This document shows, in pieces, positions 45,467-54,507 of a stretch of 64,000 nt of DNA. Positions within the stretch are counted from its first letter, which is position 1; each line of letters opens with the position of its first letter. The position numbers and the translations under genes were made by a program. The stretch covers positions 310,001-374,000 of the forward strand of contig NZ_FWFY01000003.1 of NCBI RefSeq assembly GCF_900172345.1. Direction: 5' to 3'. The stretch is from Limimaricola soesokkakensis (GTDB taxonomy: Bacteria > Pseudomonadota > Alphaproteobacteria > Rhodobacterales > Rhodobacteraceae). Under the pieces are notes generated by a model that was not told the DNA's origin, searched no databases, and worked only from the letters and a program-made list of their open reading frames with translations.

Positions 45467-45543
45467 CGGGGCGTAGCGCAGCCTGGTAGCGCATCTGTTT
45501 TGGGAACAGAGGGTCGCAGGTTCGAATCCTGCCGCCCCGACCA
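45467..45543 (+). tRNA. tRNA-Pro (anticodon TGG)
   Basis: A 77-base cloverleaf. The acceptor arms are CGGGGCG and CGCCCCG followed by A and an encoded CCA. The anticodon stem is TCTGT/ACAGA with loop TTTGGGA giving TGG, and the T-arm has GGTTCGAATCC. It reads CCN proline codons. Confidence 0.97.
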
Positions 45544-45754
45544 ATCTCCTCTCATTTCATTCTTCGTGACCTAGAGGGGCCAGTCCCTCTGGTTTCGGAC
45601 CTCGTGGCGAATCCCCCTATCACCGGGTGACGCGGGGTTGCGGCCCGTATCGCTCCATCGATGAGAGCTCTGGCTCAAAACGACCCCAAAAGACCCCTGT
45701 GGCCCCGATGTCACGCCGCGCGGTGGACAAGTTCGAGGCCCGTTTCTCACCCCC

Positions 45755-45763
45755 TGTGGATAA
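45755..45763 (-). promoter_or_regulatory. Consensus DnaA box
   Basis: TGTGGATAA on the plus strand is the exact complement of the DnaA box TTATCCACA. It lies 284 bases before the NrdJ-like ATG. A single 9-mer can occur by chance, but similar sites cluster here. Confidence 0.5.
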
Positions 45764-45864
45764 TTTTCAGGCTGTACTAAGCCGGTGCATATGTCCTCGG
45801 GTAAGGCACCCTCAAAGGCCAACGCAAGTTGGGCATATGGCATTCTTCGTGGAGCTGCGGGGGC

Positions 45865-45873
45865 TGTGGAAAA
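45865..45873 (-). promoter_or_regulatory. Near-consensus DnaA box
   Basis: TGTGGAAAA (TTTTCCACA on the minus strand) differs from the DnaA consensus at one position. A further TGTGGGAGA begins at 45877, four bases on. Confidence 0.35.
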
Positions 45874-46046
45874 CCCTGTGGGAGAGCGGTGAACTGCGGT
45901 GGGCGAATCCAAGGGCGCCGAGGCGGTGTCGCGAGATTCGTTCGCGCCACCCCGGCACCGCGTTGACCGTGCCCGCCGCGCTGCTCAGTTTCGCCGAACC
46001 GGGGGCCTGCGGCCCGCGGCTCACGCGGCGAAACGGGACCACCTGC

Positions 46047-47975
46047 ATGCAGATCGAACGGCGCTATACGATGCCGGAACAGGCCCCGCTTGCCGGGAGG
46101 CCGACCCGCCGCATCCGGCTCGAGGACGGCACCGCGATGCAGGTGCCTGCCGGCTGGACGCTCCGCGCCGCGCGCGCCTTCGCTGCCCAAGTGCCGGGGG
46201 CGCGGGCAGAGACGGGCCTTGCTGATGCCGTCGACGCGCTGGCGGCGCGGCTCGCCTCTGGCGCTAAGGCTTCCGGCCTTCTGACGGACCCCGCCTGCCT
46301 CGACATCTGGGCCGACGAGATGCGCCAGATGGTCATGCACCGCATCGCCGTTATCGATCCCGCACTCTGGAACGGTCGCATACGCGTGTCCGAGCCTGCG
46401 GCCTCGCCGCTGCGGGTGCGAATGGCGCAGACGGATGGCGTGCAGATGACGTGCCTCGCCGAAGCGGTCCGCGACGGCGCGCCGCTTGCTTTCGATTTCG
46501 AGACCGATCCGCGCGCCGCCGCGCCGCGCGTCGTGCTCGACCTGCGCTGCTTCGTCGAGGATGGCGAGGTGGCGGTGGTGGCGCTGGTTCATGCGGTCCG
46601 GCTCTGGACACTGGCTCTCGCCGTGGCTGCCGGGCGCAAGGCCGTGCCGGGTGACCTCGGATTGGCGGGTTTGGGCGGTGCGCTCATGCGGCTTGGCCTG
46701 GGCCATGCGACGCGCGAAGGGCGCATCGCGGCGGCCGCGATGGGGGCTCTGGCCGAGGCGGCACGAGCGGCCGTGGCGGCGGAGCTTGGGCTTGCGCCGG
46801 GGGCGGGCGATGCGCATGCGCGCGCCGGTCTGGCGCGACTCGAGGCCAAGCCGGTGCCGCACGCCGCCCGTGCAGCACTCACACACGCGCGCGCGCTCTG
46901 GGCCGGGATCGATGAGCAGGCCGCCCCCGATGCACCGGCGGCGCCCCGGATCGCGATCGCACCGCTTGGACCGCAGGCGGCGATCCTCGGGCTTGGGGAC
47001 GACCCGCTCGCGCCCTTGGCCGAGCTGTGCATGGAGACGGAGACCGAGCGGGGGCATTGCCGCAAGGCCGCGCCCGAGCTGCGCGCCGGGCTTGCCGCTC
47101 AGGGATACAGCGCCGACCGGGTCGAAGCATTGATCCGTCACGTGGCCGGGTATGGCAGCCTCGCCGCCGCGCAGGGCATCGACCATGCGGCGCTGCGCGC
47201 GCGCGGGCTCGACGCGCAGCAGATCGCCCGGATCGAGGCGGCGCTCCCCGAGGCGCGCGACCTGCGCGCGGCCGTCACGCCCTGGCGGCTGGGCACGGCG
47301 TTCTGCGCCTCGCGGCTCGGCCTCGACGCCGCGGCGATGCCGGGGCAGGGAATGGGGCTGCTGGAGCAGCTCGGCTTCACCGAGGCGCAGATCGAGACGG
47401 CCAATCGCCACGTCTTCGGTACCGGATCCCTGCGCGGCGCCCCGGGGATCGCGCCCCGCGACGCCGCCGCCTTCGATTGCGCGCCCGAAGGGGCGGGCGG
47501 TCCGCAGGATGTCGGTCCGCGTGCACGGCTCGCCATGGCGGCGGCGCTGGCACGGGTGATCGGCGGCCCAGTGGTGGCGCGGATGCCGCTGCCGGATGCG
47601 GCCGATGCCGGAACGGCGCGCGCGGCGATCCGCGCGGCGCGGCGGGCGGGGCTCGCCGGGCTGGCCCTGTCGCGCGATGCCGAGGCGGCGCAGCGCATGA
47701 GCGGCGCGACCGAGGCCTCCGCGGATGCCCTTTCACTGGCGCCGCGCCTGCGCGAGATCCTTGCCATGCTGCCGCCGGGCACCCGCCCCGGCAGCGCGCC
47801 AAGCGAGGTGATCGAGCTGCTTGAAGCGGCGCGTCGCTCGCGCCCCGAGGCGCGGCGTCATGCGCGGGTGCTGCGCGAGCGGCTGCTGGCCGACCCGCTG
47901 CCGCAGGATCGCGGCACGCCGCGCGTCGCCACGCCGCCGGCCGGGCACGACCGGGCGCAGACCAGGCGCGGCTGA
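46047..47975 (+). CDS. Class II ribonucleotide reductase (NrdJ)-derived protein lacking the catalytic core
   Basis: A 642-residue intact frame. It aligns by eye, in order, with alphaproteobacterial B12-dependent ribonucleotide reductase: MQIERRYT at the N-terminus, DEMRQMVMHRIAVIDPALWN (90-109, the 'DELRYML...NSPQWFN' block), RLWTLALAV and GGALMRLGLGHATREGR (185-226), GLAAQGYSADRVEALIRHVAGYGSL (349-372, cited in part), RARGL..IARIEAALP, WRLGTAFC, and HVFGTGSLRGAPG..FDCA (455-479). The finger-loop cysteine region, substrate-binding loops and C-terminal CxxC tail are missing, and the protein is about half the usual 1200 residues. It cannot be an ordinary reductase; a regulatory or structural role is inferred. 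Weak Shine-Dalgarno. Confidence 0.65.
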   Translation: MQIERRYTMPEQAPLAGRPTRRIRLEDGTAMQVPAGWTLRAARAFAAQVPGARAETGLADAVDALAARLASGAKASGLLTDPACLDIWADEMRQMVMHRIAVIDPALWNGRIRVSEPAASPLRVRMAQTDGVQMTCLAEAVRDGAPLAFDFETDPRAAAPRVVLDLRCFVEDGEVAVVALVHAVRLWTLALAVAAGRKAVPGDLGLAGLGGALMRLGLGHATREGRIAAAAMGALAEAARAAVAAELGLAPGAGDAHARAGLARLEAKPVPHAARAALTHARALWAGIDEQAAPDAPAAPRIAIAPLGPQAAILGLGDDPLAPLAELCMETETERGHCRKAAPELRAGLAAQGYSADRVEALIRHVAGYGSLAAAQGIDHAALRARGLDAQQIARIEAALPEARDLRAAVTPWRLGTAFCASRLGLDAAAMPGQGMGLLEQLGFTEAQIETANRHVFGTGSLRGAPGIAPRDAAAFDCAPEGAGGPQDVGPRARLAMAAALARVIGGPVVARMPLPDAADAGTARAAIRAARRAGLAGLALSRDAEAAQRMSGATEASADALSLAPRLREILAMLPPGTRPGSAPSEVIELLEAARRSRPEARRHARVLRERLLADPLPQDRGTPRVATPPAGHDRAQTRRG

Positions 47976-53496: not shown

Positions 53497-54507
53497 ATGC
53501 CCCGCGAGACCCGCGCCCGACCCACCTTTCTCTCCGGCCCGTCGCGGCTCGCGCTTCTGTCGTTCCTCCTGCTCGCCGCCTGCGAGGGGCGGCAATCGGC
53601 GCTGGTGCCGGGCGGCGAGGACGCGCGCATCCTGGGCGACCTGTTCTGGGTCATGCTCGCGGGCGCGGTGGTGTTGTGGTTCGGGATGAACGGGCTGTTC
53701 TACTGGGCCACCCGGCGCAGCCCGGCGGCGCATTCGCAGCGGATTGCCAATTGGCTGGTGATCCTAGGTGGCATCGCTTTCCCGACCGTGACGCTGAGCG
53801 CGCTGCTGGTCTATGGGCTGAGCATCATGCCCGACCTGCGCGCCACCGGCGACGGGCCGGTGATCCGGGTGACCGGCGAGCAGTGGTGGTGGCGCGTCGA
53901 ATACGAGCGCGAGGATGGCAGCACCGTCACCACCGCCAACGAGATCCGGCTGCCTGCGGGGGTCCGCTCGACCTTCCTGCTCGACAGCAAGGAGGTGATC
54001 CATTCCTTCTGGGTGCCGTCCCTGGGCGGCAAGATGGACATGTTTCCCGGTCGGGTGAACGAGATGACGCTCGGCCCCGAACGCCCCGGCATCTATCGCG
54101 GCCAATGCGCCGAGTTCTGCGGCGAAAGCCACGCCTGGATGGCCTTCGAGGCCGAGGTGATGGAACCCGACGCTTTCGAGGCGTGGCTCGAGGCCGAGGC
54201 CGCCCCGGCAGTGACGCCCGCGAGCGCCGAGGCGGCCCGGGGTGCGGCGCTGTTCCTGTCGCAGGGCTGCGGCGCCTGCCACGCGGTGCGCGGCACGCCC
54301 GCCGTGGGGCGGGTGGGGCCGGATCTCACCCATGTTGGCTCGCGCCATTCGCTCGCCGCCGGGCGCCTCGGCACCAGCACCGAGGATTTCGCCAAGTGGG
54401 TCGCCAATCCGGGCGCCTGGAAGCCCGGCGCCGAAATGCCCGCCTATGACCACCTTACGGGCGAACAGATCGACGCGATCGCCGCCTATCTCGAGGGCCT
54501 CGAATGA
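53497..54507 (+). CDS. coxB: caa3-type cytochrome c oxidase subunit II with C-terminal cytochrome c
   Basis: A 336-residue lipoprotein-like subunit (lipobox LLAAC, Cys29) with two transmembrane helices and a periplasmic CuA domain. CuA ligands are in VIHSFWVPSL and CAEFCGESHAWM (residues about 208-219), and EQWWWRVEYE is the usual aromatic patch. A class I cytochrome c domain follows from about residue 245 with CGACH and the axial Met in AEMPAYDHL. It passes electrons from soluble carriers to subunit I. Overlaps the subunit I gene by four bases. Confidence 0.95.
   Translation: MPRETRARPTFLSGPSRLALLSFLLLAACEGRQSALVPGGEDARILGDLFWVMLAGAVVLWFGMNGLFYWATRRSPAAHSQRIANWLVILGGIAFPTVTLSALLVYGLSIMPDLRATGDGPVIRVTGEQWWWRVEYEREDGSTVTTANEIRLPAGVRSTFLLDSKEVIHSFWVPSLGGKMDMFPGRVNEMTLGPERPGIYRGQCAEFCGESHAWMAFEAEVMEPDAFEAWLEAEAAPAVTPASAEAARGAALFLSQGCGACHAVRGTPAVGRVGPDLTHVGSRHSLAAGRLGTSTEDFAKWVANPGAWKPGAEMPAYDHLTGEQIDAIAAYLEGLE

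Follow-up and report, generated by a model that had tools for sequence, protein, structure and literature searches.

Why would a marine bacterium keep a ribonucleotide reductase (RNR) from which the catalytic parts have gone? We asked this of an open frame at 46047-47975 on the forward strand (stop codon 47973-47975) in the window, by which we mean the whole 64-kb stretch of Limimaricola soesokkakensis DNA that was analysed. Translation confirmed the frame as the original prediction had given it, with a 642-residue product beginning MQIERRYT. Because the DNA is GC-rich and a 544-residue antisense open reading frame overlaps the gene, its openness is weak evidence of coding; coding status is better backed by dN/dS values below those of neutral simulations and by retention of the frame across the genus, both described below. 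A tRNA-Pro, which the prediction had placed nearby, lies upstream at 45467-45543 on the same strand (annotated with anticodon TGG) and serves as a syntenic marker. Elsewhere in the window, the tRNA-like element that ARAGORN called at 54358-54452 on the reverse strand, its anticodon of four bases (ccag), is probably a false call.

We compared the product with known RNRs. It matched the NrdJ model NF005736 with E = 1.9e-37 and 128.4 bits, short of that model's cut-off of 1737, and PDB chain 7b9p, a class II RNR from Rhodobacter sphaeroides, with E = 1.8e-40. No Pfam RNR domain was found in the 642-residue protein, even with E values up to 10; PF08471 was detected in the stripped proteins of two other genomes (G005 and G374, introduced below) and not in that of the window. 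An AF2 model had a mean pLDDT of 81.3 and a pTM of 0.84 and matched the RNR fold, its input alignment holding three full-length NrdJ rows that push the model towards this fold. The stripped protein shares ancestry and fold with class II RNR (NrdJ), and its derivation from a long class II NrdJ, as originally proposed, is backed by both matches, by alignment and by the fold.

Alignment to full-length relatives confirmed that NrdJ segments are retained in order. The full-length set had 53 rows, including up to eight second copies from identical genomes; locus L009 was omitted for want of an ATG match to the pattern, and 8 of 39 later loci failed the filter. The gene, all on the forward strand, begins with a remnant of the N-terminal domain (46047-46376, about residues 1-110) that reaches as far as the NSPQW-equivalent region. 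Alignments and column counts place the main loss in the junction and short stretch that follow (46377-46526, about residues 111-160), where the first half-barrel with its NPCSE finger loop (full-length residues ~161-445) is mostly missing; AF2 pLDDT is below 50 at residues 113-119. Next come a remnant of the second half-barrel (46527-47069, about residues 161-341), recognized by alignment, the fold match and low pN at residues 201-240, and the insert of alphaproteobacterial NrdJ (47010-47492, about residues 322-482), of which residues 361-480 are among the most constrained. In the region of the last barrel hairpin (47493-47681, about residues 483-545) the alignment gives a degenerate equivalent of SGAISKTINMP. 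The conserved C-terminal helices (47730-47891, residues 562-615), identified by alignment, by low pN at residues 561-600 and as helices in the AF2 model, are possibly the linker before a lost TSCPD/IscU-like domain. Residues 201-240, 361-480 and 561-600 are the least changing of the protein. The insert matched no solved structure whose fold is clearly distinct from RNR, and Pfam matches to it in the window protein fell under their cut-offs.

The catalytic parts are lost, as the original prediction had claimed. The NPCSE finger loop, which we take to be the site of the thiyl-radical cysteine, has been deleted from, or replaced in, all five of the stripped proteins aligned (G000, G003, G004 and G005 of Limimaricola, and G374 of another genus). 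ACFIQ and DTACN presumably carry the redox cysteine pair of the NrdJ barrel; the ACFIQ segment is absent from all five, and the DTACN position lacks its cysteine in the Limimaricola proteins but retains it in G374. The C-terminal CxxC or Zn-finger tail is absent in Limimaricola, the G374 protein ending in a cysteine-rich relic with CxxC. Across full-length residues ~161-419, a segment whose limits we set and which holds loop 1 and the dimer helices, 15 of 159 conserved columns were aligned and four are kept in the window protein. The phosphate-binding motifs are altered: the window protein has DPALW and APLGP where full-length NrdJ has PNSPQW and APTGT. PMC8365446 describes a phosphate motif of the form P-N-S-P.

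We found the gene, or its pieces or ends where the assembly breaks, in all eight Limimaricola genomes. The frame is complete in G000, G007, G003, G004 and G005. In G002 it lies in two pieces in different frames, compact nrdJ and the NAD synthase gene being likewise broken in that assembly, and it spans contig ends in G001 (C67/C277) and G006 (C39/C6). Since these last two assemblies break within the gene, draft genomes may hide it. Among same-family genomes of other genera, 79 of 82 were matched, with frames of 872-1,526 residues, and completeness of the three without a match is 82-86%. When 394 Rhodobacteraceae genomes were scanned with the stripped alignment, 384 matched and 10 did not (the match in G005 extends beyond that gene's stop codon); one further stripped form, G374, was among the matches listed. 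The G374 protein has 738 residues and keeps full-length residues about 1-160 and 445-910; its gene occupies the corresponding position, following tRNA-Pro. G374 came out as sister to Limimaricola with UFBoot 100 in a tree built from five flanking genes (1295 columns; 33 taxa, of which L049 and L152 are one genome), and a NrdJ tree over 498 shared columns grouped the six stripped proteins with a support of 1.0 on long branches. Eight residues are fixed in all six against the residue of at least 95% of the 53 full-length rows (for example C817F), two of them (Q139R and A941P) in poorly aligned ends.

PdxH, Csp, DUF192 and tRNA-Pro precede full-length nrdJ in L049 and L050, as they do the stripped gene, and at least three of the five upstream neighbours stand beside full-length nrdJ in 22 of the 39 relatives sampled. 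Because these neighbours are common with full-length nrdJ, we conclude that the stripped gene is the old nrdJ in its original place. A separate, apparent disruption was seen in G449, from another genus: at L118:5249-8524 (reverse strand), sequence that looks phage tail-like by eye continues without a frame break into the second half of nrdJ, represented by full-length residues ~657-1228. A prophage or rearrangement may split the gene there.

We estimated dN/dS across orthologs, a further check proposed at the outset. For G000-G007 the Nei-Gojobori value was 0.30, against a mean of 1.10 and a minimum of 0.60 in 1000 neutral simulations. The pairs G000-G003, G000-G004, G003-G004 and G000-G005 gave 0.43, 0.48, 0.54 and 0.69, each lower than the minimum of its 200 simulations (0.95, 0.86, 0.88 and 0.89 in the same order), and 2.3-4.8 stops were expected in these simulations where none is seen. 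The simulations covered five of 10 genome pairs; dN/dS in the other five was 0.44-0.76. Across all 10, pairs with G005 range up to 0.69-0.76. Eight comparisons with the gene pieces of G006 and G002 gave 0.40-0.61, these genomes entering as pieces only and G001 by gene ends only. The estimates are drawn from Limimaricola, G374 being a single genome of its genus. We conclude that the stripped protein is maintained by purifying selection, and the earlier statement that it is not a decayed copy holds in the sense that it has not simply decayed. Constraint is partial, since the gene evolves faster than its neighbours, which gave 0 to 0.12 for G000-G007, where it gave 0.30; the highest neighbour value was 0.39, for an ExoD-like gene in G000-G005.

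This partial constraint bears on the main rival to reading the product as a binding protein, namely slow decay. The gene would then be a relic that is translated and mildly constrained, for example against misfolding or toxicity, has no function that matters and will be lost. We judge this unlikely, though a serious contender. It would account for a dN/dS at least 2.5-fold over that of the neighbours in G000-G007 and for the different deletions carried by G005, G374 and other species, and three near-complete relatives (G213, G372 and G430) do without the protein. No match to the stripped alignment was found in these three, and distant matches only to compact NrdJ; both class II enzymes have apparently disappeared from some lineages of Rhodobacteraceae. 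Decay sits poorly, however, with five tested pairs that lie under every neutral simulation, with a stripped form that persists in two genera, and with eight shared derived residues and a retained upstream site. The original prediction had named orthologs full of frameshifts as evidence against itself; the five complete frames contain no stops. By eye, loci in G213, G372 and G430 resemble class I subunits.

The upstream site consists of DnaA-box-like sequences. TTWTCCACA occurs twice in the whole window, against a chance mean of 0.10, and both sites, found by motif scan on the reverse strand, are upstream of the gene: TTATCCACA at 45755-45763 and TTTTCCACA at 45865-45873. The footprint of the latter is conserved at nine of nine stripped loci, where CTGTGGA[AT]AA lies 175-218 bases ahead of the start. 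A TTGACC element at 45963-45968 on the forward strand, also present at all nine, is a possible -35 of a putative promoter; no sigma-70 consensus pair was found upstream of the gene. TTWTCCACA falls within 600 bases upstream of full-length nrdJ at nine of 41 loci (10 boxes) and is missing there from the other 32; the 10 upstream boxes compare with four in the rest of the 41 loci (binomial p 2e-10, the related genomes not being independent). In E. coli, nrdAB is under DnaA control, and the RNR genes of B. subtilis and Caulobacter have been proposed to be so too (PMC8203912, excerpts). To judge from its motifs, the cluster at 45750-45885 is possibly a DnaA-regulated or DnaA-titrating site; a role for the predicted boxes unrelated to the stripped gene is also possible. 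Given that the old upstream region is retained with these sites, the protein is probably still made and linked to replication control.

We asked which RNR serves the host. Compact NrdJ is present in all eight Limimaricola genomes (in two pieces in G002), and neither NrdB (class I small subunit) nor NrdD (class III RNR) was matched in any of the eight. In the source genome no intact long NrdJ was found, and no RNR other than compact NrdJ; the NrdJ model search matched the stripped gene and a complete compact NrdJ only, with no second gene for the missing half. The search for compact NrdJ came up empty in G374, which has class I NrdAB: both subunits are encoded, and the barrel domain of the large one is complete. 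Two types of RNR thus accompany the stripped protein.

This distribution weakens a proposal that we consider improbable, namely that the protein binds compact NrdJ and, as a regulator or dominant-negative partner of the active enzyme, adjusts dNTP synthesis. The retained RNR fold, the status of compact NrdJ as the only RNR detected in Limimaricola and the DnaA-box-like sites, given DnaA control of nrd genes elsewhere (PMC8203912, excerpts), would all suit such a role. The class II dimer interface is formed by helices and loop 1 (PMC9669993, excerpts), however, and these fall within the deleted half; moreover, same-family genera with a full-length match carry a compact NrdJ, 66-86% identical, beside an intact long NrdJ and without a stripped form. 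With the interface deleted and no compact NrdJ found in G374, the protein is unlikely to be dedicated to partnering compact NrdJ, and dominance over the 'real NrdJ', as first suggested, is unsupported, the source genome being without an intact long NrdJ. Least probable is a nucleotide or cobalamin sensor that keeps a barrel ligand site and signals through the insert: the second half-barrel is retained, but the phosphate-binding motifs are altered and the first half-barrel is mostly missing.

We therefore favour, as probable although not secure, the reading that this is a dead NrdJ remnant at its original place, under selection and most likely a non-catalytic binding protein, with the insert and C-terminal helices as contact surface. 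dNTP synthesis would have passed to another RNR, which is compact NrdJ in Limimaricola and class I NrdAB in G374. In-frame losses, in part through deletions that differ between lineages, as the alignment suggests, would have removed the catalytic half-barrel and redox tail. Selection has retained the second half-barrel, the insert and the N-terminal remnant, as dN/dS, the kept frames and the shared derived residues show. The half-barrel may act as the scaffold that displays the contact surface of insert and C-terminal helices, with production from the old nrdJ promoter presumably still tied to replication control. The evidence suggests that the leftover shell has gained a second, non-enzymatic job, and supports the reuse of the NrdJ fold that the original prediction had listed among its alternatives. 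We suggest more tentatively that this bacterial RNR pseudoenzyme has a new role in coupling nucleotide supply or replication control, the old locus and its DnaA-box-like sites having outlived the enzyme, and that it is a scaffold or regulator built on the insert that works in Limimaricola and its sister genus with either RNR type. If the half-barrel and insert were selected after catalytic loss, the alphaproteobacterial NrdJ insert would serve a function distinct from ribonucleotide reduction; excerpts of the cited literature describe no role for it.

Long NrdJ (NF005736/PRK07562; 7b9p and 7b9q, Rhodobacter sphaeroides) is a full enzyme, whereas the stripped protein lacks most of the first half-barrel, the radical cysteine, the specificity and dimer elements, the TSCPD/IscU-like domain and the Zn-finger CxxC tail. 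It also differs from the compact class II NrdJ of the source genome (758 residues), a distant paralogue with a complete barrel domain, a TSCPD domain and a CxxC-rich tail. Like the split class II NrdJa/NrdJb (PMC9669993 and PMC4520616, excerpts), the stripped gene does not encode one complete chain, but NrdJa/NrdJb has a second gene and the missing half of stripped NrdJ was not found elsewhere in the source genome, so no NrdJab-like two-chain enzyme can form. By model match and alignment, the stripped protein is an RNR alpha homologue without catalytic residues, that is, a pseudoenzyme; a full-text literature search gave no report of a bacterial RNR pseudoenzyme among the matches listed. The inactive R1 proteins of betaherpesviruses (HCMV UL45 and MCMV M45), which we take to be class I-derived, likewise descend from RNR alpha and lack most catalytic residues. 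Excerpts of PMC5469499 and PMC11772975 propose that these homologues are kept for protein binding. They are viral, whereas the stripped protein is chromosomal, bacterial and class II-derived, with about half of the barrel deleted. The RNR pseudoenzymes documented in herpesviruses are a precedent, of which this bacterial, class II-derived case is a variant.
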